Both the position numbers and the translations under genes were made by a program. The notes beneath the pieces were generated by a model that saw only the letters and a list, made by a program, of their open reading frames with translations, searched no databases and was not told the DNA's origin. A stretch of 35,089 nucleotides of DNA from a bacterium (GTDB lineage: Bacteria > Vulcanimicrobiota > Vulcanimicrobiia > Vulcanimicrobiales > Vulcanimicrobiaceae), in NCBI GenBank assembly GCA_021845615.1, contig JAJZVP010000009.1:1-35089 (forward strand). Direction: 5' to 3'. Of this stretch, positions 19,526-32,192 are shown in pieces (the first letter of the stretch is position 1; each line of letters opens with the position of its first letter).

Positions 19526-19837
19526 ATGTTCGAGCTTCTCGATAGCTATCTTCTTGAGAATTCCCCGGCGAAAGGGAGCGTCGTCGCTTCCCTCTTGGCC
19601 TCGCGGCCGAGCGGCGAGCACCTGCGACCGTTCATGGAAGGGATCGCTCGTTTGGGCGACCGGACCCCCGACCTGGCGTTGCTCGCGCTTCGCTTGGCGG
19701 CGGCGAACCTTCGCGCCGACGACGCGACGGTCTTGGCGCTCCGCGATGCGTCGCTACGCGCGCGTTCCGGCGACGCCGCCGCGCGCGAGAGCTATTTTAA
19801 AATTCTCCGCGGCGATGGAACGTCGTCGATACCGTGA
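19526..19837 (+). CDS. Unknown small helical protein
   Basis: A 103-residue frame from the ATG at 19526: MFELLDSYLLENSPAKGSVV, then SGEHLRPFMEGIARLGDRTP and a mostly helical remainder. Composition is ordinary for a soluble protein (Leu, Ala, Glu and Arg spread through predicted helices). No ribosome-binding site is visible, and only six bases separate it from the divergent protease start, so it would need a leaderless start or a promoter inside the protease gene. I do not recognise a family. It precedes the peptidoglycan-recycling genes on the same strand. Confidence 0.5.
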   Translation: MFELLDSYLLENSPAKGSVVASLLASRPSGEHLRPFMEGIARLGDRTPDLALLALRLAAANLRADDATVLALRDASLRARSGDAAARESYFKILRGDGTSSIP

Positions 19838-19858
19838 TGCGTTCATAGAGCACCAAAC

Positions 19859-20158
19859 GTGAAACGCTCCGCATTGCTCGTATCGTTCCTCCTCGCACTC
19901 GCACCGAGTGCCCTGTTGGCGCATTCGTCGCACACGCTCTCGTTCTCGGGGCGGCTCGTCGCGATTCACTACCAGCGGCCACGAATCGACGTGCGGGTCG
20001 GTGAGAAGACGCTCGAAGTAACGGTGACCCCCAATACCTCGATCCAGCGCTCCGGCAATTTCGCCACCCTCGCCAGCCTGCGGCTCGGCGACCGCGTCGA
20101 GGTACTCGCGGCTCGCTCCGGGAAGATGCTCGTAGCGCAATCGATCGCCGCGCACTGA
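19859..20158 (+). CDS. Small exported DUF5666-like protein
   Basis: A 99-residue protein from GTG 19859 with a signal peptide (MKRSALLVSFLLALAPSALLAHS). The mature part is a single small beta domain: FSGRLVAIHYQRPRIDV, LEVTVTPNTSIQ, LRLGDRVEVLAARSGKMLVA. The repeated pattern (G-x-V/L, a modified strand, VTPNTxI, LRxGDRVxV) is that of DUF5666-type OB-like modules. It is in the same reading frame as NagZ and stops 33 bases before the NagZ start. Role unknown; probably periplasmic. Confidence 0.7.
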   Translation: MKRSALLVSFLLALAPSALLAHSSHTLSFSGRLVAIHYQRPRIDVRVGEKTLEVTVTPNTSIQRSGNFATLASLRLGDRVEVLAARSGKMLVAQSIAAH

Positions 20159-20191
20159 CGTCACGTTCCTCCCTTCCGAGAAGGAGCCGTT

Positions 20192-21673
20192 CTGAGCGAG
20201 TTCGTCGACCTGGCAGAGGGTGTTCTCGCAGTCGGATTTCCGGGTTCAGAGCTCGACGCGACGAACCTCGGTGAATTTTCGTCGCGTGCCTACGGCGGCT
20301 ACGTCCTCTTCGCGCGGAACCTCCCCTCCCTGGAGCGCGCGCGGGCCTTAACCGACGCGCTGCGAGCACTGCGCCCCGACGATCCGATGCCGCTGATCGC
20401 GATCGACCAGGAAGGCGGCCGCGTCGCGCGCCTGCGCGAAGGGCTCGCCCCGATGCCGTCGATGATGGCGGTCGGAGCCGCCGACGACCTCGACCTGGCA
20501 CGACGGCTCGGCGAACAGATGGCGCACGATCTTCGGCGCATCGGAGCGAATCTCGATTTCGCACCGGTGCTCGATCTCGCCATCGATCGCGGAAGTACCG
20601 TCATCGGCACGCGCGCGTTCGGCGACAACCCCGAGCGCGTCGCCGATCTGGCGGGCGCCTTCGCAAGCGGGATGGGGCGGCGCGGTATCGTTCCGACCTT
20701 CAAGCATTTCCCAGGGCACGGAAGCACCGCCGTCGATTCTCACGTCTCGCTGCCGACGATCTCGCTCCCCACGACGCTGCTGCACGTGCGCGATCTCGGC
20801 CCTTTTTGCGATCTCCTACCGCACGCGCGTGCGGCGATGGTCGCCCACGTCGTCGTGGAATCGGTCGACGCCGAGCATCCCGCAACGCTCTCGGAGGCGG
20901 TGATGAAGAGCTTGTTGCGCGAGAGCTGTTCGTTTAACGGTGTCGCTTTTACCGACGATTTGGAGATGGGCGCGCTCGCTCGCTTCGGGACGATTCCGCA
21001 GCGCGCCGCGGCGGCGATTCGCGCCGGCGCCGACTGCGCGCTGATCTGCGAACGGCTCGAAGACGCGCTCCCGGCCGCACGCGAGATCGCCGCCACGATC
21101 GCGCGCGGCGAGATGCGCGAGTGGCGCCTGCGCGAGGCGGGTATGCGCATGCGCATGTTGCGCGCGACGCTGAGCGCGCCGATAGCGCTCGAGGCTCCGG
21201 GGCCGTTTCCCGATGTCGGCGCGACGATCGCCGCGCGCGCCGTCACCCGCGTTCGCGGCACGCCGCGGGCGCGCGCCGACGAGAGCGCGCTCGTGCGCTT
21301 CGGCGTCGCCGGAGATCTCGGCCCGGCCGCGCTCGGCGCGCTCGAGGCGCCCGCGCTGCATCCGGAGGATCCAGGCTCGGTGGAGCGCGTGCTCGACGCA
21401 TTGGCGAGTTCGGGGCGGCGCCCCGTGCTGCTCTCCTATCGCACGCATCTCGACGCCGCCGCGCGGAGCGCGATTCGTCTGATCGTCGAGCGCTTTCCCG
21501 AAAGCATCTTCGTTTCGACGATGGAGCCGTTCGATATCGAGGCGGTACCGTTCGTCGAGCACGCCATTTGCTGTTACGGCGACGATGCGTTGCACCTTCA
21601 CGCCTGTGCCGCCGCGATTTTTTCCGGCGCACCGACGAACGGAAAATTACCGGTCTCCCTCGCGCGTGGTTGA
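20192..21673 (+). CDS. nagZ: Beta-N-acetylglucosaminidase, glycoside hydrolase family 3 (NagZ), probable CTG start
   Basis: Removes GlcNAc from peptidoglycan fragments. With the CTG at 20192 the product has 493 residues. Family motifs: IAIDQEGGRVARL near 69-81, KHFPGHG at 171-177, the acid/base dyad D182-H184 (DSH) and the nucleophile region FTDDLEM (D255/D256). A C-terminal domain of about 150 residues beyond the catalytic barrel resembles two-domain NagZ of Gram-positive type rather than the ~340-residue E. coli form. The family-conserved N-terminal strands (VLAVGFPG, GGYVLFARNL) are in frame upstream of the first ATG at 20387, yet no ATG, GTG or TTG occurs back to the previous stop. AAGGAG (20181-20186) sits five bases before the CTG, which I take as the start. 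No signal peptide, so likely cytoplasmic. Confidence 0.88.
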   Translation: MSEFVDLAEGVLAVGFPGSELDATNLGEFSSRAYGGYVLFARNLPSLERARALTDALRALRPDDPMPLIAIDQEGGRVARLREGLAPMPSMMAVGAADDLDLARRLGEQMAHDLRRIGANLDFAPVLDLAIDRGSTVIGTRAFGDNPERVADLAGAFASGMGRRGIVPTFKHFPGHGSTAVDSHVSLPTISLPTTLLHVRDLGPFCDLLPHARAAMVAHVVVESVDAEHPATLSEAVMKSLLRESCSFNGVAFTDDLEMGALARFGTIPQRAAAAIRAGADCALICERLEDALPAAREIAATIARGEMREWRLREAGMRMRMLRATLSAPIALEAPGPFPDVGATIAARAVTRVRGTPRARADESALVRFGVAGDLGPAALGALEAPALHPEDPGSVERVLDALASSGRRPVLLSYRTHLDAAARSAIRLIVERFPESIFVSTMEPFDIEAVPFVEHAICCYGDDALHLHACAAAIFSGAPTNGKLPVSLARG

Positions 21674-22703
21674 TCGTTTCGAGGAGTGCGATGCGGTGCT
21701 TCGCGATGCGCTGGGGCGGCGCTTTACCGCCGCTGCGGCGCGCGTCGAGCTCCACGGGCGGGTCGTGTTCGAACGGGCGTACGGCCGTACGCGCGACGAC
21801 GAGCTCGGCCGACCGATCGCGATCGACGCGCGGTTCGATTTGGCCTCGCTCACCAAGCTCTTCGTCGCCACGGCCGCGCTCGATGCGATCGCGCGCGGCC
21901 GATTGACGTTGGACGGCGCGCTCGTCGAAACGATACCGGAGTGGAGCGATCTTCCGCACCGGGCGATTACGATGCGTCGCCTCCTCGCGCATACGTCGGG
22001 GATGCAATCCGGAGCGCACTATCGTGCGTTGCGCGATTTTTCGGTCGAAGCATTCGCGCTGACCGCCGATCTACACGGTAAGGTCGGGAGCGAGGTGCTC
22101 TATAGCGATCTCGGATTCATCGCACTCGGCATCGCGATCGCACGCCGCGAATCACGATCGTTGCAAGCGGTAGTCGAGGGATTGGTCGGGCGAGCCACGC
22201 TGGGTTTTCGGCCGCGCGCGCGGCAGTGGGGCGCGATCCCCGCAACGGAGTGCGATGCGTGGCGCGGACGCCTGCAAGGGCGCGTCCACGATGAAAAGGC
22301 GTTTCTCTGCGGAGGCGTCGCGGGACACGCCGGGCTCTTCGGGAGTGCGGCCGATGCGGCGTGGGTCGGCGAGCAATTTCTCGCGCCGCTCCACGGCCGA
22401 AAATCGCTATTGGATCGCTCGCTCGCGGAGGAAGCGCTCCGCGAGCAGGCTTTCGAACCGACGCTGCGCCGCGGGCTCGGATGGGCGTTGAAAACGCGCG
22501 ACGATAATTCGTGCGGGCCGGGCTTCTCGCGCGATTCCTTCGGACATACCGGTTTCACCGGAACTTGTATCTGGGTCGACCCGCAGCGCGATCTGACCGC
22601 GGTGTTGCTCGCGAATACGGTCTATTTCGGGCGCGAGGACGGCACCGATCTCCGGCGCGCGTTCTTTACCGGCGTGACCAACGCGGTGGATGCCGACGCG
22701 TGA
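21666..22703 (+). CDS. Serine beta-lactamase-family hydrolase (class C / DD-peptidase-like)
   Basis: A 345-residue penicillin-binding-type serine hydrolase starting at GTG 21666, which overlaps the NagZ stop by eight bases. The catalytic SxxK is S61-L-T-K64, the second element is Y146-S-D (usually YxN), and the third is H294-T-G (HTGFTG). GHAGLFGSAADAAW near residue 218 is common in the beta-lactamase/esterase EstB group. There is no N-terminal signal peptide, so a cytoplasmic role is likely. In a recycling operon a plausible job is trimming peptides or esters from muropeptides, but that is inference from context. Confidence 0.88.
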   Translation: MVDRFEECDAVLRDALGRRFTAAAARVELHGRVVFERAYGRTRDDELGRPIAIDARFDLASLTKLFVATAALDAIARGRLTLDGALVETIPEWSDLPHRAITMRRLLAHTSGMQSGAHYRALRDFSVEAFALTADLHGKVGSEVLYSDLGFIALGIAIARRESRSLQAVVEGLVGRATLGFRPRARQWGAIPATECDAWRGRLQGRVHDEKAFLCGGVAGHAGLFGSAADAAWVGEQFLAPLHGRKSLLDRSLAEEALREQAFEPTLRRGLGWALKTRDDNSCGPGFSRDSFGHTGFTGTCIWVDPQRDLTAVLLANTVYFGREDGTDLRRAFFTGVTNAVDADA

Positions 22704-23854
22704 TCGCACTCGGGATGATGAGCGGCACCTCGCTCGACGGTATCGACTGCGCGCTCGTCGACCTGCGCTCTCGGGGCGATGCCGTGATGGTGGGGGTGAT
22801 CGACGCGCGAACGTTCGCGTTCGACGGCGCGACTGCGGAGTTGCTCGCAGCGGTCGTGCGCTACGGCCGAAGCGACCTCGCCTCCGTCGCCCGCCTCCAT
22901 CGCTCGCTCGGGCTCGCGCATGCCGATGCCGCGGAGCGCTTTCTCGACGGGCGTCCGCTCGATTTTGCCGCGATGCACGGGCAAACGATTTTTCACGACG
23001 GCGCCGCCTCGGAGACGTTGCAGATCGGCGACCCGTTTGCCGTTCGAGAGCGCATCGGCGCGAGCGTCTGCTTCGATTTTCGGAGTGCCGATTGCGCGCT
23101 CGGCGGAGCGGGAGCGCCGCTGGTCCCCTACGTCGACGTGCTTCTGCTCGCCGATCCGTTTGAGAAGCGCGTCGCGTTGAACTGCGGCGGGATCGCCAAC
23201 GTCACGCTGCTCGCGCCGGGAGCCTGCCCCGAAGACGAGCGAATCGTCGCGTTCGATACCGGCCCGGGGAATATGTTGATCGACGCATGGATGTTGGAGA
23301 TCAGCGAGGGGCGGCTGGCGTACGATGAAAACGGCGAACGCGCGGCGCGCGGTACGGTGGATGCGCGCTTGCTCGCCTCGATGCTCGAGGAACCGTACTT
23401 TGCGATGACGGCGCCGAAATCTACAGGGCGCGAACGCTTTGGCGAGGCGTTTTTGGGACGCTTCCGCTCGTCGCTGCGCAGGCTCGAACTCGACGATGCG
23501 CTGGCGACGCTGCTCGCGCTGAGCGTCGAGAGCATCGCGCGAGCGCTCGAACTCCATCGCTTCGCCGACGCACGCGTGCTCTGCTCGGGGGGCGGGGCGC
23601 GCAACGGAGCGTTCTTGCGCGCGCTTGGGGAGCGGCTTTCGCAGGCGCGCGTCGAAACCAGCGACGCTGTGGGGATGCCGATCGATGCAAAAGAAGCGAT
23701 AGCCTTCGCCGTTCTGGGATACGAGACGCTGCGCGGACGGAGTGCGAATCTTCCGTCGGTGACGGGAGCGCGGAGGCGGAGCGTGCTCGGTGCCGTGGCG
23801 CCGCACGATCTCTCGGCGTTGCTCGCGAAAATGGCGATGGAGTGCGCGGGATGA
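22700..23854 (+). CDS. anmK: Anhydro-N-acetylmuramic acid kinase
   Basis: Phosphorylates and opens 1,6-anhydro-MurNAc to MurNAc-6-phosphate in peptidoglycan recycling. The 384-residue product begins at GTG 22700 in a GTGA overlap with the preceding stop. The N-terminus MIALGMMSGTSLDGIDCALV is the family hallmark. DFRSADCALGGAGAPLVPY (near 130-148), FDTGPGNMLIDAW (near 188-200) and CSGGGARNGAFL (near 295-306) are the other conserved sugar-kinase elements. Length is standard for AnmK (about 370-390). Its presence implies that lytic transglycosylase products (anhydro-muropeptides) are recycled. Cytoplasmic. Confidence 0.96.
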   Translation: MIALGMMSGTSLDGIDCALVDLRSRGDAVMVGVIDARTFAFDGATAELLAAVVRYGRSDLASVARLHRSLGLAHADAAERFLDGRPLDFAAMHGQTIFHDGAASETLQIGDPFAVRERIGASVCFDFRSADCALGGAGAPLVPYVDVLLLADPFEKRVALNCGGIANVTLLAPGACPEDERIVAFDTGPGNMLIDAWMLEISEGRLAYDENGERAARGTVDARLLASMLEEPYFAMTAPKSTGRERFGEAFLGRFRSSLRRLELDDALATLLALSVESIARALELHRFADARVLCSGGGARNGAFLRALGERLSQARVETSDAVGMPIDAKEAIAFAVLGYETLRGRSANLPSVTGARRRSVLGAVAPHDLSALLAKMAMECAG

Positions 23855-24747
23855 TCGTCGGAATCGATCTCGGCGGTAGTAAGAGCGTCGCGGTGCTTCG
23901 CGACGGCGGGCGAAGCGCGCGCGCCGAGGGGGGGCCGGCGAATCCTTCGGTCATCGGCCTCGACGGCGTGCGGGAAGTCTTGCGCGTCCTCGTCGGCGAT
24001 CTCGATATCGAACGGGAGCCCGACGCCGTCGTCCTCGGCGCTGCCGGTATTTCGAACCCCGGTCTCGCCGATGCGCTCGAAGCGACGTTGCGCGCGGCAT
24101 TTCCGCGCGCGCGCATCCGTTGCACGAGCGATGTCGAGATCGCGCTACGCGCGGCGATCCCCGATGGCGACGGCGCGGTGTTGGTGGTTGGGACGGGAAG
24201 CGCGGCGTACGGCGAGAGCGGCGAGCGACGGTGTGCGATCGGCGGCGGCGGCTATTTGCTCGGCGACGAAGGCAGTGGATTCGCGCTCGGTGCGGCGGCG
24301 GCTCGCCTCCTCTCGCGCTCGTACGACGGACGCGCCCCGCGCGATCGCTGGTTTGCCGACCTCGAACGCGTATTGGAGTGCGACGATCGTGCCTCGCTCT
24401 TCGCGAAGATCTATCGCACGCCGGTCCCGGTGGCGACGATCGCCGCGCTCGCGCCGCGGGTTCTCGCAGCCGCCGATATCGGCGAACGTTCGGCGGTAAA
24501 GATCGTTCAGGGAGCGGCGTTAGAACTCGCCGATCTCGTCCGCACGCTCTTACGGCAGCTCGATGCATTGCAACGTCCGATGACGCTCGCGCTCTGCGGC
24601 GGTCTCGTCCGCGAGAATTCGTTGCTCACGTTTTTATTCGAGACCCGTCTCTCCAACGAAGCCCCGTTGTTGAGCGTGCGAAAGTTCTCGGGCGAGCCCG
24701 TCGAGGGGGCGCTCGTGTTGGCGGAGCGTGCGAGCGCCGCGCGATGA
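23851..24747 (+). CDS. BadF/BadG-type amino-sugar kinase (N-acetylglucosamine kinase / MurK-like)
   Basis: A 298-residue ASKHA-fold kinase starting at ATG 23851 in an ATGA overlap with anmK. Phosphate-binding motifs are MIVGIDLGGSKS at the N-terminus and VLVVGTGSAAYGE near 111-123; LLGDEGSGFALG follows near 136, and ALCGGLVREN near 250. This is the arrangement of the BadF/BadG/BcrA/BcrD ATPase family, which includes human NAGK and clostridial MurK. In this operon it probably phosphorylates free GlcNAc released by NagZ, and perhaps MurNAc. Which sugar it prefers cannot be read from sequence. Cytoplasmic. Confidence 0.9.
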   Translation: MIVGIDLGGSKSVAVLRDGGRSARAEGGPANPSVIGLDGVREVLRVLVGDLDIEREPDAVVLGAAGISNPGLADALEATLRAAFPRARIRCTSDVEIALRAAIPDGDGAVLVVGTGSAAYGESGERRCAIGGGGYLLGDEGSGFALGAAAARLLSRSYDGRAPRDRWFADLERVLECDDRASLFAKIYRTPVPVATIAALAPRVLAAADIGERSAVKIVQGAALELADLVRTLLRQLDALQRPMTLALCGGLVRENSLLTFLFETRLSNEAPLLSVRKFSGEPVEGALVLAERASAAR

Positions 24748-25622
24748 GCGACGCACTTCCGGCGACCGAGGCGATCGCGCAACGGAGGGCGTTGGATACC
24801 CTCGAGATCGACGAGTGCGTCGGAGAACTCGTCGCCGTGCAATACCGCGCGATAGAAGCCGTCGAAGCGGCGCGCGGCGCGATCGCCGCCGCCGCGCGTG
24901 CCGCCGCCGATGCGATGGCGCGCGGTGCGACGTGGCACACGATCGGCGCCGGCAGTAGCGGACGGATCGCCGCACTCGATGCCGTCGAATTGCACCCGAC
25001 GTTCGGCCTCGAACGCGCTCGGCTCCGCATACATCTCGCCGGCGGCGAGGCGGCCTTTCTCGCCGCGATCGAGGGCGCGGAAGATGACGCCGAAGCCGGC
25101 GCGCGCGATCTCGGCTGCGTCGCTCCGGGCGACGTCGCGCTCGCACTCTCGGCGAGCGGGCGCGCCCCGTACGTGCGGGCCGCGCTGCGCACCGCGCGCG
25201 AACGCGGAGCGTTGACGATCGCGCTCGCGAACGACCGAACGGCACCGCTCTTTGCCGACGCCGCGTTCGCGATCTTTCTCGATACGGGGGCGGAGCCGCT
25301 CGCCGGATCGACGCGGGTCCTCGCCGGAACGGCGCAAAAAATCGCATTGAACGCGCTCTCGACGGCGGTGATGGTAGCGCTGGGAACGACCTACGAGAAC
25401 ATGATGGTCGACGTCGTCGTTACGAATGAAAAATTGCGCGATCGAGCCGAACGCATCGTGATGCGCGCGGTTCCCTGCGAGCGCGAACGCGCGCGGGGGC
25501 TCCTCGCCGATGCGGCGGGCGCGGTCAAGCTCGCGATTGCGATGGCGTGGCTCGGGGGCGACGCGGGCGGCGCGCGCGAGGCCTTAGCGCGCAACGGCGA
25601 ACGGTTGCGCGGCCTGCGGTGA
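24744..25622 (+). CDS. murQ: N-acetylmuramic acid 6-phosphate etherase
   Basis: Cleaves the lactyl ether of MurNAc-6-phosphate, giving GlcNAc-6-phosphate and D-lactate. The 292-residue product starts at ATG 24744 (ATGA overlap). The SIS-fold signature GAGSSGRIAALDAVELHPTF contains the catalytic glutamate E82; the second acidic patch is EGAED at 110-114. EPLAGSTRVLAGTAQKIALN and MMVDVVVTNEKL are further family motifs. Small departures from the usual E-C-P-P-T-F-G (here E-L-H-P-T-F-G) are notable but the key acid is kept. Together with AnmK this completes conversion of anhydro-MurNAc to GlcNAc-6-P. Cytoplasmic. Confidence 0.95.
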   Translation: MSDALPATEAIAQRRALDTLEIDECVGELVAVQYRAIEAVEAARGAIAAAARAAADAMARGATWHTIGAGSSGRIAALDAVELHPTFGLERARLRIHLAGGEAAFLAAIEGAEDDAEAGARDLGCVAPGDVALALSASGRAPYVRAALRTARERGALTIALANDRTAPLFADAAFAIFLDTGAEPLAGSTRVLAGTAQKIALNALSTAVMVALGTTYENMMVDVVVTNEKLRDRAERIVMRAVPCERERARGLLADAAGAVKLAIAMAWLGGDAGGAREALARNGERLRGLR

Positions 25623-27229
25623 GGTCGCCGCGCCGGACGCTCGTCGTAACGCTCGCCCTTTCATTGCTCTGCGCTGCGGTCGCGCGCGCCGCCGGCGCGC
25701 CGGTGCTCTTCGTCCCACTCGACGACCGTCCGGTAACGCGCCAACTTCCCGCCATGCTCGGCGCGATCTCCGGCGTCCCGGTTCTCGAACCGCGTCGCGC
25801 GCTCTTGGGCAACTACCTCCGCGCCGGCGATCCGGCGGCGATCGGGCGATGGCTCGATCGGGAGAGTGCGGAGCGAGGCTTCGGTAGCGCGGTGATCTCG
25901 ACCGATATGCTCGCCTATGGCGGGTTGGTCGCATCGCGCATTCCCGGCCCCGATTACGCGACCGCATTCTTTCGCTTGGCACCGATCGCGCGTCTGCACC
26001 GGCGCGATCCGCAGGCGTGGGTCGCGGCGTTCGCAACCGTCGTGCGGCTCGCGCCGACCGGGGTTCCGCCGATCGGCGCCGCAACGCATTTCTTCGCGGC
26101 GTACCCGGTGTGGAAATACATTCAACGCTACGCGAACCTTCCCGATCCGCTGCCGAAACGCGATGAAGCGTACGCCGAGCGCTTGCGAACGCTCGCGGGG
26201 CCGGCGACGCTCGATGCCTATCTCGCCGTGCGCGCGCGCAATCTCGCACTCGATCGCTCGCTGCTGCTCGCGACCGGAGCCGGAACGATCGATCGGCTCG
26301 TCATCGGGCAAGACGATGCGGGACGCGTCGGGCTGCACGTTCCGGAGCTCGCGCAGTTGCGCGCGATGGAGCGGCTCGACGTGCCGCCGGGGCGATCCTC
26401 GATCGAACCGGGCGCCGACGAATTAGGGATGGTGCTGGTCGCACACGCGATGGCGCGCGACGCAGGCTGGCGACCGCGTATCGCCGTCCGCTATTCGACG
26501 CCCTCCGGTGCGCTGGTTCGAGACCCGCTGGAATTCGAACCGATCGGCTCGACGATCGCTTCGCTCGTTCGGCTCGTCGGCGGCCGCGAGGTGCGGCGAC
26601 GGGCGGATATCGTTCTCGACGTGCGCGTGCCGCGGACGACGGCGAGCGAGGACGATCTCCTCGTCGCATCGATGCGTCGATCGCTCGCGCGTCGACGACG
26701 CATCGCATTGGTCGATCTCACGTTTCTCGATGGGAACGACGACGCGGAGCTCGCACTCATGCAGCGCCTGTTGCACGACGGGCTCGCCGCCCGTCTCGAT
26801 GCCTACGCTTCCTGGAACACCGATGCCAATAGCGTCGGAACCGCGCTCGCCGAAGCGGTCGCCGCCGGTGCCGGGCGACGCCTCGGCAGCTACGATCGGC
26901 GCGCGCACCTCACGTTCACCTTCGATCGCATTCTCGACGACGTCTATTTTCACGCATTGGTGCGCCCCGAACTCGAGCGCGCGCTCGCGGCCGAAGGTAT
27001 TCTCGACCACACCTATCTGCTACGCGCGATCGCCGCGCGAACGCAGCGCCTTGCGAGCGCCGCGCTCTGGCAGTACGCGCCGGGGCTCCTCGCCGCGCTC
27101 GCGCCGCGCGATCACATCGCCGCGTTGCGCATCACGCTTCCCTGGGATCGCACCTTCGAAACCGAGATCGATCCGGCGATCGCGCCGGATATCGTGCCTA
27201 CGCGCTCTGCGCGATCTCCTCGTCGCTGA
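25619..27229 (+). CDS. DUF4127-family exported protein, last gene of the recycling operon
   Basis: A 536-residue protein starting at GTG 25619 (GTGA overlap with murQ). The first 25 residues look like a signal peptide (RRTLVVTLALSLLCAAVARA). The family signature PLDDRPV is at 33-39, and STDMLAYGGLVASR (near 97-110), VIGQDDAGRVGLH (near 226) and SWNTDANSVGTALAEAV (near 398-414) are the conserved blocks I associate with DUF4127. No biochemical role is known to me. The conserved acidic DD/QDD and W-N-T-D motifs suggest a hydrolytic or metal-dependent enzyme; position suggests an extracytoplasmic step on peptidoglycan fragments. It overlaps the 3' end of the convergent radical SAM gene by 32 bases. 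Confidence 0.88.
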   Translation: MRSPRRTLVVTLALSLLCAAVARAAGAPVLFVPLDDRPVTRQLPAMLGAISGVPVLEPRRALLGNYLRAGDPAAIGRWLDRESAERGFGSAVISTDMLAYGGLVASRIPGPDYATAFFRLAPIARLHRRDPQAWVAAFATVVRLAPTGVPPIGAATHFFAAYPVWKYIQRYANLPDPLPKRDEAYAERLRTLAGPATLDAYLAVRARNLALDRSLLLATGAGTIDRLVIGQDDAGRVGLHVPELAQLRAMERLDVPPGRSSIEPGADELGMVLVAHAMARDAGWRPRIAVRYSTPSGALVRDPLEFEPIGSTIASLVRLVGGREVRRRADIVLDVRVPRTTASEDDLLVASMRRSLARRRRIALVDLTFLDGNDDAELALMQRLLHDGLAARLDAYASWNTDANSVGTALAEAVAAGAGRRLGSYDRRAHLTFTFDRILDDVYFHALVRPELERALAAEGILDHTYLLRAIAARTQRLASAALWQYAPGLLAALAPRDHIAALRITLPWDRTFETEIDPAIAPDIVPTRSARSPRR

Positions 27230-28370
27230 GATAGCAGCCGGGGTCGGATCCCCAGAGGTCGCCGGTCATGCCGAGCGAGCGGGCGCGAAAACCGCCGCCG
27301 CAGAGATCGAAGAAGTTGCAGCTCGCGCACCGTCCGTGAATTTGCTTCGAACGGTCGCGGAGTTCGGCGAGCGTTTCGATGCCGTCGTCCTCCCAAATCT
27401 CGCTGAATTTGCGGTCGCGCACGTTGCCGAGCGTGATCTGCTGCATGAATTGATCGGGATGCACGTTGCCGTAGAAATCGATATTTCCAATACCGCGGCC
27501 GGTCGAATGGCTCGCGCCGCCGTTCCAGAGTAGCATCTCGCGCGCTTTCGCGGCGCGCTGCGGTGAGGCGGCGGCGAGCGTCAGATAGGCGAACGGCGCA
27601 TCGGCGTGGTTGTCGACGGTGAGAATTTCGCGCGGGTCGCCGCGTTGGGCGAGATCGAGGGTTCGTTCGAAGATGCGACTGACCGCGCCGCGCGCCGCCT
27701 CGAGATCGAGCGTCGTCGCCGCGCGCCCGCGCCCGGCGGGAACGAGGTGATAGAAGCAGGCCCGTTCGATGCCCTCGCGTTCGATGAAGTCGAAGATCTC
27801 ATCGAGATCGGCGATCGTCTGTGGCGTTAACGTGAGGCGAAGACCGACCTTTTGCCCGACGGTGCGCAGTTCGCGAATCGCCTGGCGCGCGCGGTCGAAG
27901 GCGCCGGGGCGTCCGCGGAAGAGATCGTTGGTCGCGCCCATGCCGTCGAACGAGATGCCGACGTAGGTGAAACCGGTCTCTTTGATCATCTCGGCGCGTT
28001 TGCGGTCGATGAGGGTGCCGTTGGTCGAGAGCGTGAGTTTGAGCCCTCTGCTGCGTGCGTGGCGCGCGATCTCGAAGAGATCGGGGCGGGCGAGCGGCTC
28101 GCCGCCGGAGAGCAAGAGCGCCGGGATGCCGTAATCGGCGAGGTCGTCGACGAGTTTGAGCGCCTCCTCGTGGTTGAGTTCTCCCTCGTAGTGCTTCGCC
28201 TCGGAGTCGCTATAGCAGTGGACGCAGCGAAGATTACAGGTGCGCGTCACGTTCCAGACGACGACGGGGCGCCGCCCCCGGGCGCTCTTCTCTGCATCGT
28301 GGCCGCGGCCGTAGCGGTGGCCGTCCATCGGTTGTTCGAGGTCGCACAGAATCCGGGTGACGTTAAACAT
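27198..28370 (-). CDS. Radical SAM/SPASM enzyme, AhbC/NirJ-like
   Basis: A 390-residue radical SAM protein. The SAM-binding cluster cysteines are C45-C49-C52 (CNLRCVHC), followed by the GGEP loop (LLSGGEPLARPDLF). The C-terminal SPASM-type region (CASCNFFDLCGGGFRAR and DLWGSDPGCYL) holds cysteines for an auxiliary iron-sulfur cluster. The opening MFNVTRILCD and the ending DLWxxDPxCYLxDEE match, from memory, the AhbC (12,18-didecarboxysiroheme deacetylase) and NirJ proteins of alternative heme and heme d1 synthesis. No other heme genes are nearby, so another radical SAM role (peptide or cofactor maturation) is possible. GGGAG precedes the ATG by about seven bases, inside a predicted hairpin. 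It is the last gene of the methylmalonyl-CoA cluster. Confidence 0.85.
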   Translation of the reverse strand: MFNVTRILCDLEQPMDGHRYGRGHDAEKSARGRRPVVVWNVTRTCNLRCVHCYSDSEAKHYEGELNHEEALKLVDDLADYGIPALLLSGGEPLARPDLFEIARHARSRGLKLTLSTNGTLIDRKRAEMIKETGFTYVGISFDGMGATNDLFRGRPGAFDRARQAIRELRTVGQKVGLRLTLTPQTIADLDEIFDFIEREGIERACFYHLVPAGRGRAATTLDLEAARGAVSRIFERTLDLAQRGDPREILTVDNHADAPFAYLTLAAASPQRAAKAREMLLWNGGASHSTGRGIGNIDFYGNVHPDQFMQQITLGNVRDRKFSEIWEDDGIETLAELRDRSKQIHGRCASCNFFDLCGGGFRARSLGMTGDLWGSDPGCYLSDEEIAQSA

Positions 28371-28455: not shown

Positions 28456-28860
28456 TTACGCGTGGTGCTCCTGCTGGCAGAGCTCGACGAGCACCCCGGC
28501 GGTCGAGGAGGGATGGATAAAGGCGATGAGGTTGCCGTGGGCGCCCTTGCGCGGCCGCTCGTCGATCATGCGGACGCCGCGCGCCCGAAGGGCGGTGATC
28601 TCGGCGACGAGGTCCTCGACCCGATAGGCCGTGTGGTGGAGCTTGCTCGCCGCCTCGCCGCGGAAGCGCGCGATCGGCGAGGTTTCGTCGAGCGGGCGGA
28701 GCAGCTCGATCGACGATTCGCCGGCGCGCAGGCCGACCGCTTCGACTCCCTGCTCGGCGATCGTCTCGCGATAGATCTGTTCGAAGCCGAGGCGCTCGGT
28801 GTAGATCGCGAGGGTCGCCTCGAGGTCGGCGACGACGATGGCGATGTGGTCGATCGTCAT
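28456..28860 (-). CDS. Methylmalonyl-CoA epimerase
   Basis: A 134-residue glyoxalase/VOC-fold protein that interconverts (2S)- and (2R)-methylmalonyl-CoA. Metal ligands are visible at H5 ([10 protein letters not shown]), the histidine of [11 protein letters not shown] (H75 or H76) and E126 (GVLVELCQ). [11 protein letters not shown]-like sequence ([14 protein letters not shown]) near 108-120 is typical of the epimerase. The length is standard. The ATG at 28860 overlaps the stop of the mutase subunit in an ATGA, so the two are translationally coupled. Ends in QQEHHA. Confidence 0.94.
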
Positions 28861-30437
28861 GCGAGGCTCTCTCGGGCGCGATAGGTACCGAAGATCTCGC
28901 GGAGGAGGTTGCAGATCTCGCCAAGCGTCGCCCCCGCGTCGACCGCTTCGACGAAATGCGGCATCACGTTCTCGTTCCCCGCGGCGGCGGCGCGAATCGC
29001 GGCGAGGCGTTCCGCGACGGCGGCGCCGTTCCGAGCGGCGCGGAATTTTTGGAGACGCTCCACTTGTTCGCGCTCCACGCGTTCGTCGATGCGTTGGAGC
29101 GCCGGAACCTCGGCGTGAATCCCATCGTCGACGAACGCGTTCACGCCGACGACGATCGCTTCTTTGCGCTCGATCGCCTGCTGGGCGAGATACGCCGAAT
29201 CGCCGATGCGGCTCTGCATCCATCCGCTCTCGATCGCGGCGATGCTGCCGCCGAGCGCGTCGATCTCGGCGATCGTCGCGCGCGCCGCTTCGATGAGTTC
29301 GTTGGTAAGCGTTTCCACGTAGTAGGAGCCGGCGAGCGGATCGACCACATCGGCGACGCCGCTTTCGTAGCCGATGATCTGTTGGGTGCGCAGCGCCAAT
29401 TTCGCACTCTGCGCGGTCGGAAGCGCGAGCGCCTCGTCCTGTCCGTTGGTATGCAAGGATTGCGTGCCGCCGAGAACCGCCGCCAACGCCTGGAGCGTAA
29501 CGCGGACGACGTTGTTCTCCGGTTCCTGCGCGGTGAGCGTCGAGCCGGCGGTCTGGGTGTGAAAGCGCAACATCTGCGAGCGCGGATCGCGGCAACCGAA
29601 TTCGTCACGCGTAATGTGCGCCCAGAGGTAGCGTGCCGCCCGGAACTTGGCGATCTCCTCAAAAAAGTCGTTGTGGGCGTTCCAGAAGAAGGAGAGCCGC
29701 GGTGCGATGCTATCGAGTTCGATTCCCGCGTCGCGCGCCGCCTGCAAATACGCCTTCGCGTTTGCGAGCGTGAAGGCGATCTCTTCGACCGCGGTCGAGC
29801 CCGCCTCGCGTATGTGGTATCCGCTGATCGAGATGGTGTTCCATTGCGGAACCTCGCGCGCGCAGTACGACATGACGTCGGTTACCAGGCGCATCGAAGC
29901 CTTCGGCGGATAGATATAGGTGCCGCGCGCCGCATATTCTTTCAACACGTCGTTTTGGATCGTTCCGCCGAGCCGGTCGAATGGAATTCCGCGCCGCCGA
30001 GCGACCGCGAGCAACATCGCAAGGAGGATCGAGGCCGGCGCGTTGATCGTCATCGAAATCGTGACTTCGTCGAGCGGAATATCGCGCAGCAAGCTCTCCA
30101 TATCGTCGATCGAATCGATCGCGACGCCGACCTTCCCAACCTCGCCGCGAGCGACGCCGGCATCGGAGTCGTGGCCGAGTTGGGTCGGCAGATCGAATGC
30201 GACCGAGAGCCCGGTCTGTCCGCGCGCGAGCAAATAGCGGTAGCGTTCGTTCGATTCGGCGGCGGTGGCGAACCCGGCATACTGACGCATCGTCCAGAGC
30301 CGCGTGCGATACTGATCGGCGCGAGTCGCGCGGCCGAAGGGAAATCTTCCCGGCTCACCGAGATCGTGCGCGACGCCTCGCGCCGCGTCGTAGAAGGGCT
30401 GAAGCGGAATCCCGCTAGCGTTGGTCGAGCGTGCCAT
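28857..30437 (-). CDS. Methylmalonyl-CoA mutase, large catalytic subunit without the B12 domain
   Basis: A 526-residue substrate-binding TIM-barrel subunit of the two-chain type of mutase, which isomerises methylmalonyl-CoA and succinyl-CoA. Conserved blocks include [19 protein letters not shown] (near 53-71), [50 protein letters not shown] and [10 protein letters not shown]. The family C-terminal cobalamin-binding domain with DxHxxG is absent, so a separate small subunit must be encoded elsewhere. It lies nine bases after the biotin carboxylase stop and overlaps the epimerase start. It could run in either direction: propionate use or supply of propionyl-CoA from succinyl-CoA. Confidence 0.96.
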
Positions 30438-30446
30438 GGCGTTCTT

Positions 30447-32192
30447 TCATTCCGCGAATGTCAGAATGGGCCGGTCCGCTTCGACCGTTCCTCCGACCTC
30501 GACGTGGATCTCTCCGATGCGCCCGGAGCGGTGCGCGCGAATTTCGTTCATCATCTTCATCGCTTCGATGACCGCGACGACATCGCCCTCGACGACCTCA
30601 TCGCCGCGCGCCGCGCGCAGCTCGATAACGACGCCGTGCATCGGCGCGAGAATATCGGAGCCGTCGTGAGCGGCGGTGCTCCGCGCCCGGGTTCTCGGCG
30701 CGGGCGCGCGACGGCTCGCCGTGCGTCCGTTCGGGAGCCCGTCGACGAGCCGCACGCGGAAGAGCTTGCCGTTGACTTCCACGCGGATATCCTCGCTCGC
30801 GGTCGCCGCGGGAGCCTCCGCCGAGGGCGTGGAGGGTGCCGCGGCGTTCTCGGCCCAGCGCTCCGTGAACGGTTCGAGGCTCGCAGTGCCGTAACTCGCG
30901 TCGGCGACCATCGGGGCGTCGCAGAGCGCGTGCAGCAACGGAAGCGTGGTCGGCAAGCCGCCGACCACATACTCGGAGGTCGCGCGTTTCATGCGTGCCA
31001 GCGCTTGCTCGCGCGTCGGCGCCCACACGATGAGCTTCGCAACCATGGAATCGTAATCCGGAGAGATCGTCATGCCGACGTGCGCCGCCGAATCGATGCG
31101 AATGCCGAGTCCGCCGGGTTCGCGATAGCGATCGATCGTGCCGGGCGTCGGGCGAAAATGTTGTGCCGGATCCTCGGCGTTGACGCGTCCTTCGATCGCC
31201 GCTCCGCGAAAGTGAATCTGCTCTTGCGCATATCCGAGCGGCTCGCCCGCCGCAACGCGAATCATCTCGCGCACGAGATCGATGCCGGCGATCTCCTCGG
31301 TCACGGTGTGCTCGACCTGAATGCGCGTGTTCATCTCGAGAAAGTAAAAATCGTCGCCGACGACGAGGCACTCGATCGTGCCGACGGAGTCGTAGCCGAT
31401 CGCTCGGGCGGCTCGCATGCCGGCGGCGCGCATCGCTTCGCGCGCACGGTTGGAGATCTGCGCGGGCGCCTCTTCCCAGAGCTTCTGATGGCGACGCTGG
31501 AGCGAACAATCGCGATCGCCGACGTGCAGGACGGTGCCGTGCTTGTCGGCGAGAATCTGCAGTTCGACGTGCTTGGGATTATCGAGGTAGCGCTCGGCGT
31601 AGACGACGGGATTTTTGAAGTACGCCTCCGCCTCGCGCACCGCAGTCGCGAAGGCGCTCTCAATATCGTCGAGCGTGCGGACGATCTTCAAACCCTTTCC
31701 GCCGCCGCCGCCGGAGGCTTTGAGGGCGAGCGGGAGGCCGTAGCGCTCGACCGCTTCGCGAACCGCCGCGACGTCGGCGAGCGGCTCGGTACCGCCGGGA
31801 ACGAAGGGCACTTTCGCCTTCGCCATCGCGGCGCGCGCTCGAAGTTTATCGCCCATGGCGTCGATCGCGTCGGGGTGCGGACCGATCCAAGTAAGTCCCG
31901 CGGAGATCGCACGACGCGCGAAGCCCGCGTTTTCTGCGAAAAAGCCGTAGCCGGGATGGATGGCATCGGCGCCGCTGCGGCGCGCGATATCGAGCAGCGC
32001 GTCGGCGTTGAGGTAGCTCTGCGCTGGCGAGGCACCGCCGAGAAAATACGCTTCGTCGGCGATGCCGACGTGTAAGGCGGAGCGATCCGGCTCGGAGTAG
32101 ACGGCGACGCTGCGAATTCCCATCTCGCGCAGCGTGCGCATGATGCGAATCGCGATCTCGCCGCGATTCGCGACGAGGACTTTAGAGAACAC
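30447..32192 (-). CDS. Acetyl-/propionyl-CoA carboxylase alpha subunit (biotin carboxylase plus biotin carrier)
   Basis: A 581-residue protein joining an ATP-grasp biotin carboxylase to a biotin carrier domain. It starts at GTG 32192 with FSKVLVANRGEIAIRIMRT. The ATP-binding glycine loop is KASGGGGGKGLKIV near 160, and the carboxylase signature FLEMNTRIQVEHTVTEE lies near 287. A linker rich in Ala, Pro and Arg (AAPSTPSAEAPAATASED) leads to the carrier domain with the biotinylated lysine K546 in EAMKMMNEI. The partner carboxyltransferase is probably the truncated gene at the right edge. Its start overlaps the stop of the short upstream gene by 11 bases. With the mutase and epimerase next door, propionyl-CoA is a likely substrate, and acetyl-CoA is possible given fabI. 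Confidence 0.95.
   Translation of the reverse strand: MFSKVLVANRGEIAIRIMRTLREMGIRSVAVYSEPDRSALHVGIADEAYFLGGASPAQSYLNADALLDIARRSGADAIHPGYGFFAENAGFARRAISAGLTWIGPHPDAIDAMGDKLRARAAMAKAKVPFVPGGTEPLADVAAVREAVERYGLPLALKASGGGGGKGLKIVRTLDDIESAFATAVREAEAYFKNPVVYAERYLDNPKHVELQILADKHGTVLHVGDRDCSLQRRHQKLWEEAPAQISNRAREAMRAAGMRAARAIGYDSVGTIECLVVGDDFYFLEMNTRIQVEHTVTEEIAGIDLVREMIRVAAGEPLGYAQEQIHFRGAAIEGRVNAEDPAQHFRPTPGTIDRYREPGGLGIRIDSAAHVGMTISPDYDSMVAKLIVWAPTREQALARMKRATSEYVVGGLPTTLPLLHALCDAPMVADASYGTASLEPFTERWAENAAAPSTPSAEAPAATASEDIRVEVNGKLFRVRLVDGLPNGRTASRRAPAPRTRARSTAAHDGSDILAPMHGVVIELRAARGDEVVEGDVVAVIEAMKMMNEIRAHRSGRIGEIHVEVGGTVEADRPILTFAE

Follow-up and report, generated by a model that had tools for sequence, protein, structure and literature searches.

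A peptidoglycan-recycling operon that ends in the gene of a putatively exported DUF4127 protein, a family whose gene neighbours point to amino-sugar catabolism

What might a protein of the family DUF4127 (PF13552), to which Pfam assigns no function, be doing as the last product of an operon for peptidoglycan recycling? The question is raised by a stretch of 35,089 nucleotides from a bacterium of the family Vulcanimicrobiaceae (contig JAJZVP010000009.1 of assembly GCA_021845615.1; this whole stretch is called the window here), in which six plus-strand genes follow one another in the order nagZ, a PF00144 serine hydrolase gene, anmK, the gene of a BadF-type kinase, murQ and the DUF4127 gene, with overlaps at all five junctions. 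An earlier interpretation made from the letters of the window (the sequence-only reading) had described this set, and all six products, in that order, were confirmed by our analysis. The answer that we favor, with a probability of about 0.5, is that a cytoplasmic peptidoglycan-recycling operon has been extended by an exported amino-sugar enzyme, DUF4127, which would cleave an N-acetylhexosamine (HexNAc) glycan into a shared pool of N-acetylglucosamine 6-phosphate (GlcNAc-6-P). The recycling genes themselves are known, and it is their combination with DUF4127 that constitutes a new form of peptidoglycan recycling; the literature searched made no mention of DUF4127 or PF13552.

The overlap between nagZ and the serine hydrolase gene is 8 bp long (21666-21673), and the remaining four junctions are 4-bp GTGA or ATGA overlaps (22700-22703, 23851-23854, 24744-24747 and 25619-25622). 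The window is GC-rich, and 46 of its 520 plus-strand stop codons overlap the beginning of an open reading frame (ORF) of at least 250 amino acids; with so high a chance background a single overlap is weak evidence, and the weight rests on conservation. The same kind of overlap is present at four of the junctions in a genome of the same genus (G052), and the gene order was found again in the loci fetched from the window's family and order.

By homology the assignments of NagZ, MurQ and AnmK are secure (scores in Table 1). NagZ exceeds the cut-off of its equivalog model and aligns with its best solved relative over the region KHFPGHG...DSH, whose letters, KH(F)PGHG...DSH, we take to be those of the Asp-His catalytic loop motif of NagZ. 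A passage in PMC6403190 describes an Asp-His dyad as used in NagZ catalysis. AnmK just misses the best NCBIfam equivalog (375.5 against a cut-off of 387), and MurQ passes its subfamily model and misses the narrower TIGR00274 (229.7 against 302). The BadF-type kinase is called MurK-like because its closest solved structure, 8zo3, is an N-acetylmuramic acid (MurNAc)/N-acetylglucosamine (GlcNAc) kinase, and this is its predicted specificity. The serine hydrolase carries the SxxK motif as SLTK and shares 26% identity with E. coli YfeW/PBP4B (9e-28); it is homologous only, since it falls short of the PBP4B/YfeW equivalog NF002968 (92.6 bits against a cut-off of 385). Presumably AmiE of Bacillus subtilis belongs to the same serine-hydrolase family. 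The simplest reading is that the window protein is a putative cytoplasmic muramoyl-peptide amidase in the role of AmpD.

Comparison with known systems makes such a role ordinary, and the cytoplasmic serine hydrolase that the sequence-only reading had singled out is no oddity. In the stretch murQ-murP-yfeW of E. coli MG1655, the MurQ homologue (41% identity) is accompanied by the YfeW homologue of the serine hydrolase, and unlike the window this stretch has no nagZ, anmK or DUF4127. The B. subtilis cluster described in PMC5061867, murQ-murR-murP-amiE-nagZ-ybbC, in which amiE encodes an N-acetylmuramyl-L-alanine amidase, resembles the window in holding murQ, nagZ and an amidase gene together and in ending with the gene of a separate protein (ybbC, its function given as unknown in that account). 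According to the same account NagZ and AmiE of B. subtilis act outside the cell, whereas their homologues in the window have no evident signal peptide. The window operon also differs from this cluster in having AnmK, in lacking murP and murR, and in ending in DUF4127, its NamZ-type gene being at another locus.

How firmly DUF4127 is tied to this operon was assessed in 148 genomes of the phylum, with PF13552 found in 126 and AnmK in 123 (G125 and G139, whose DUF4127 matches are weak and unlisted, were counted as AnmK only). Three families are distinguished below: that of the window (f1), its sister family in the same order (f2) and a family of the same class outside that order (f3). Of the 87 genomes of the window's order that list both genes, 81 have DUF4127 on the strand of anmK and at most 6 kb downstream of it (78/84 in f1, 3/3 in f2); in five of the six f1 exceptions the two genes are on separate contigs, and in one (G061) they are 11 kb apart. 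Among the 12 loci fetched from the order, 9 have murQ and the DUF4127 gene overlapping or no more than 72 bp apart, and three have gaps of 0.8, 1.1 and 2.3 kb. The radical-SAM gene directly 3′ of the operon was found in 1 of 12 f1/f2 loci (L132, same genus), and since this downstream gene is so rarely kept, the linkage of DUF4127 to the operon is more than general synteny. In the rest of the class the distance between anmK and DUF4127 is 8.6-17 kb in 3/3 genomes, and class members without the DUF4127 link retain nagZ-hydrolase-anmK-(BadF)-murQ. In other classes of the phylum, DUF4127 and anmK were on one contig in none of the 17 genomes carrying both, and 12 further listed genomes have DUF4127 without a listed AnmK. 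The peptidoglycan-recycling link of DUF4127 is real but confined to one order.

Loci from many phyla show a different company. From 407 relatives, picked out by a WNT-motif pattern and confirmed by a single query, the best 80 were used, and these are hence not a random sample. Identical contigs, loci or tree rows suggest that no fewer than six of the 80 (L032, L033, L039, L041, L043 and L073) are members of the window's own phylum, even though L033 is labelled Bacillota. Group labels follow the database records, neighbour counts used one representative per family, and some neighbours have Pfam-based names while ROK, ABC permease, substrate-binding and SusC/D proteins were named by recognition. 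No anmK and no PBP4B-like gene was found near DUF4127 in these 80 loci, and a nagZ homologue was found in four. The commonest neighbours are an ABC permease (29), a substrate-binding protein (28) and a flavin adenine dinucleotide (FAD) oxidoreductase of PF12831 (FAD_oxidored; 28), followed by a ROK kinase (26), NanE (25), RpiR (21), Gfo/Idh (21), a TIM-barrel protein without a Pfam family (20) and xylose-isomerase-like TIM genes (10). A Bacteroidota cluster combines GlcNAc 2-epimerase, a major facilitator superfamily (MFS) gene, DUF4127, SusC and SusD, with the epimerase in 5 of 9 loci, and in an acidobacterial metagenome-assembled genome a GH20 gene ends where the DUF4127 ORF begins. Among annotated plasmids, the loci of Carnobacterium and Priestia hold NanE and MurR/RpiR with DUF4127, and that of Deinococcus holds nagZ, a GH20-like domain and ABC genes. 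The family-wide partners of DUF4127 are genes of HexNAc/N-acetylmannosamine (ManNAc) catabolism, that is, amino-sugar genes. The association with anmK, murQ and nagZ that the sequence-only reading had anticipated therefore holds in the window's order and not in the other classes or across phyla, and DUF4127 as a general peptidoglycan-recycling gene was dropped as a candidate; its idea that DUF4127 acts on cell-wall sugars keeps amino sugars as the likely field and loses the general tie to recycling.

A less biased sample, 78 genomes of Paenibacillaceae, gave the same association. NanE lies within 6 kb of 18 of 26 high-scoring DUF4127 genes, mostly within 400 bp, and by genome 21 have both DUF4127 and NanE, 2 DUF4127 only, 20 NanE only and 35 neither (Fisher p ~1e-5, relatedness not corrected). 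These counts bear on the idea that shared regulation is the sole reason for the place of DUF4127 in the operon and that its function has nothing to do with amino sugars, for example that of a binding or envelope-assembly protein. Such a role would suit a protein with no known activity, whose recycling linkage is confined to one order and which has one plasmid locus without sugar genes; however, the association with HexNAc genes is repeated in distant phyla and in this independent sample, and the protein has invariant acidic and basic residues, several of them at strand ends, so that we consider this explanation very unlikely.

The DUF4127 protein of the window matches PF13552 over its full length and far above the cut-off, PF13552 being its sole Pfam match, with no match to PF07075 (NamZ). 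It keeps all 21 invariant columns of a 54-sequence alignment, among them D35, D233, D267, D366 and five Arg, and this set of invariant Asp and Arg suggests an enzyme. In a tree of 95 DUF4127 sequences, made by a quick method and with long branches present (L033, L063 and L087 of the 80 loci left out; f1 and f3 sampled, f2 absent), an exported clade comprising the window's class, Bacteroidota, Acidobacteriota, Verrucomicrobiota and part of Armatimonadota is split from a mainly cytosolic clade with 97% support in the Shimodaira-Hasegawa-like approximate likelihood ratio test (SH-aLRT). By a crude home-made hydrophobicity rule, signal-like N-termini are present in 9/9 Bacteroidota, 4/4 Acidobacteriota, 2/2 Verrucomicrobiota, 10/16 of the window's own class and 2/37 Bacillota. 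The export of DUF4127 here, proposed in the sequence-only reading, is supported by its signal-like N-terminus and its placement in the exported clade. The AlphaFold model (mean predicted local distance difference test, pLDDT, 89.3; predicted template modeling score, pTM, 0.91) consists, by our own reading of the order of strands and helices, of two parts of Rossmann or flavodoxin type, and several of the invariant residues (Asp, Arg, WNT) are found where strands end. One viral predicted protein in BFVD, the nameless A0A346TNQ6, shares this fold (E 5.6e-29, TM 0.77).

The partner set seen across phyla is also present in the window's genome, divided between two loci. NanE occurs in all 17 genomes examined of f1 and f2, including that of the window (G000:C72), and in 0/4 of f3; FAD_oxidored is present in the same 17/17 genomes, 16 of which have it on one contig with NanE, and in G000 and G052 an ORF for a BadF-type kinase, recognised by eye from sequence, lies between the two. 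Upstream in these NanE loci (G000:C72, L165, and G052:C14, L166), which are unlinked from DUF4127, are a membrane-protein-like ORF, an M20 peptidase gene and a hydantoinase/oxoprolinase-like gene. The ManNAc-type clusters of Bacillota, with NanE, ROK, ABC and RpiR genes, hold the same DUF4127 family, and the window's genome has NanE, a BadF-type kinase and FAD_oxidored as they do; in those clusters DUF4127 is mostly cytosolic and lies inside the cluster, whereas the window copy is an exported protein encoded in the recycling operon.

Further genes expected of a recycling pathway were sought in 21 genomes. The AmpG permease (TIGR00901), noted as missing in the sequence-only reading, was indeed found in 0/21 at E 1e-5, with E. 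coli among the positive controls and the window's own assembly being 81% complete. The reported absence of NagA holds for the window only, as a NagA-like gene, under the TIGR00221 cut-off, lies elsewhere in its genome (G000:C130) and in 20/21 genomes overall; a missing NagA as the sign of an unusual route was accordingly dropped. An MFS gene at 11836-13257 was considered as an uptake system and had no homologue in 21 related loci, most of which have little sequence 5′ of the operon. A NamZ_N (PF07075) gene is present in 15/21 genomes, including that of the window (G000:C124), which weakens the proposal that DUF4127 replaces an absent NamZ.

NamZ also bears on the view taken in the sequence-only reading, namely that in this order DUF4127 works on peptidoglycan itself, for example by exo-acting trimming of glycan ends or of muropeptides before uptake, a role that NamZ (ybbC, encoded together with nagZ and amiE) is believed to have in B. 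subtilis. The DUF4127 gene is the last gene of a recycling operon, overlaps murQ and keeps its linkage to recycling throughout the order; its product is exported, and the many invariant Arg of this protein would go well with an acidic sugar, for instance MurNAc. Against this, the family is mostly found without recycling genes, both in the 80 loci and in the 12 genomes of other classes mentioned above, and the NamZ gene elsewhere in the genome means that the job already has a candidate. We regard this explanation as unlikely.

Under the reading that we prefer, that of an exported amino-sugar enzyme joined to a recycling operon, the steps suggested by the protein families would be as follows. 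Turnover products would enter the cytoplasm by a route other than a detected AmpG; NagZ would take off GlcNAc and the PBP4B/AmiE-like hydrolase the peptide; AnmK would convert anhydroMurNAc to MurNAc-6-P, the MurK-like kinase would phosphorylate GlcNAc or MurNAc, and MurQ would give GlcNAc-6-P, to be deacetylated by the NagA-like enzyme encoded elsewhere. Outside the cytoplasm, DUF4127, whose chemistry we infer, would cleave a HexNAc-containing glycan or glycoside, probably from the envelope or scavenged and plausibly containing ManNAc; the freed sugar would be imported, phosphorylated and brought to GlcNAc-6-P through the separate FAD oxidoreductase-BadF kinase-NanE locus. That recycling and the DUF4127 route both supply GlcNAc-6-P would explain the co-expression of DUF4127 with murQ. 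ManNAc, to which NanE and GlcNAc 2-epimerase point, and an acidic sugar, which would fit the Arg-rich invariant set, are leads as to the substrate and not results.

Several observations weigh against this reading. DUF4127 and NanE are not adjacent in the window's genome, two genomes (G024 and G044) carry DUF4127 though NanE was not found in either, and f3 keeps the operon without an adjacent DUF4127. Six of the 16 own-class copies of DUF4127 fail the signal-peptide rule; a second, lower-scoring type of DUF4127 in Paenibacillaceae (~199-253 bits, 18 genomes) is near NanE in 0/18, and an annotated plasmid locus of Alkaliphilus has DUF4127 and no sugar genes. The specificity for ManNAc is one that we infer for a protein that has no catalytic assignment and that no solved structure matches confidently: Foldseek against the PDB gave 0 matches at E <=0.001 (best E 2.2e-3, TM 0.19), the best VIA match (Z 9.2) covered only 115 residues, within a single flavodoxin-like part of generic kind, and no PDB sequence came up below E 0.1 in a profile search. 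The glycosidase or amidase fold that the sequence-only reading had envisaged around the motifs PLDDRPV and WNTD thus found no confident counterpart by Foldseek or VIA.

A predicted fold unlike that of any solved glycosidase could also mean that DUF4127 is not a hydrolase, and that it belongs to an oxidative or eliminative sugar route with the PF12831 FAD oxidoreductase, or is an epimerase or isomerase of a HexNAc derivative. FAD_oxidored is among the commonest partners and present in every f1/f2 genome examined, and Gfo/Idh and xylose-isomerase-like TIM genes are frequent as well; however, the FAD enzyme is presumably cytoplasmic and so kept apart from exported copies of DUF4127, DUF4127 showed no recognisable cofactor-binding motif, and many DUF4127 loci lack FAD_oxidored. 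This makes a non-hydrolytic role quite unlikely in our estimation.

A bolder version of the preferred reading is offered tentatively, and we hold it to be doubtful as a whole. DUF4127 would then be an undescribed carbohydrate-cleaving family, set apart from the solved glycosidases by a two-part alpha/beta fold. With the PF12831 FAD oxidoreductase and a 2-epimerase as its partners, it would act on glycans of the N-acetylmannosamine type or on acidic N-acetylhexosamine glycans, and one order would have tied this pathway to peptidoglycan recycling, making the salvage of wall glycans and of other envelope glycans a single process. The literature searched made no mention of an N-acetylmannosaminidase, or of PF12831 together with glycoside. 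PF13552 is spread over many phyla, and its gene context now gives it a field, N-acetylhexosamine catabolism (NanE, FAD_oxidored, kinases); the window's order offers a system that couples an exported member of the family translationally to peptidoglycan recycling. If enzyme activity were true of it, DUF4127 would be a new family of carbohydrate-active enzymes and may explain envelope-sugar salvage in bacteria without a detected AmpG.

Two other families recur near DUF4127. The TIM-barrel protein counted above (TIMx, e.g. L033:2079-2801), often directly 5′ of DUF4127, is found in 20 of the 80 loci and in 9 of 20 loci of other classes of the window's phylum. Its model is a confident TIM barrel of phosphate-binding type (pLDDT 92), and NanE is not among the structure matches listed for it, which are TrpA, ThiE, RPE, KDPG aldolase and others. 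A family of proteins of ~390-490 residues with a conserved RANHxGVxDxSxSP occurs near TIMx and DUF4127 or nagZ in L036, L040, L042, L046, L048, L054, L076, L088, L035, L057 and L060, and the L042 copy, the one searched at full length, had no Pfam match.

Table 1. Features of the operon and its possible 5′ companions in the window.
Feature	Coordinates	Strand	Evidence and remarks
103-aa ORF	19526..19837	+	No Pfam match; possible 5′ companion of the operon
99-aa DUF5666-like ORF, signal-like N-terminus	19859..20158	+	PF18914 E 2.1e-5, 25.2 bits, under cut-off 27; possible 5′ companion
nagZ, GH3 beta-N-acetylglucosaminidase	20192..21673	+	PF00933 222.6 bits; NF003740 242.5 bits (cut-off 207); 3tev_A 4.3e-55; probable CTG start; no evident signal peptide
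Beta-lactamase-family serine hydrolase, PBP4B(YfeW)/AmiE-like, putative muramoyl-peptide amidase	21666..22703	+	PF00144 137.3 bits (cut-off 27); YfeW homology; no evident signal peptide
anmK	22700..23854	+	PF03702 332.6 bits (cut-off 24); 3cqy_A 1.4e-65
BadF-type sugar kinase, MurK-like (predicted MurNAc/GlcNAc kinase)	23851..24747	+	PF01869 91.6 bits (cut-off 31.5); 8zo3_A 9e-26
murQ, N-acetylmuramic acid 6-phosphate etherase	24744..25622	+	NF003915 291.2 bits (cut-off 168); 41% identity to E. coli MurQ
DUF4127 (PF13552) protein, 536 aa, signal-like N-terminus	25619..27229	+	PF13552 315.8 bits (cut-off 27), full-length match

The start of the operon requires a correction. The sequence-only reading had placed it at 19526, a coordinate that belongs to the 103-aa ORF, and nagZ probably starts with a CTG at about 20192. 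No ATG, GTG or TTG lies early enough to cover the part of the protein that aligns with solved NagZ structures; the CTG at 20192-20194 follows a GGAG, both are conserved in the same-genus genome G052, and in other genera an ATG or GTG occurs close by. Both small ORFs are kept 5′ of the operon in two of the related loci that were compared, those of G052 and G026 (84% and 51% identity for the 103-aa ORF), and they may belong to the operon transcript.

Beyond the 3′ end, the radical SAM/SPASM protein encoded on the minus strand at 27198-28370, convergent with the operon, is nearest to the heme-modifying families NirJ1/AhbC, under their cut-offs, and at 28857-32192 (minus strand) the genes of a methylmalonyl-CoA mutase and a biotin carboxylase are next to each other.

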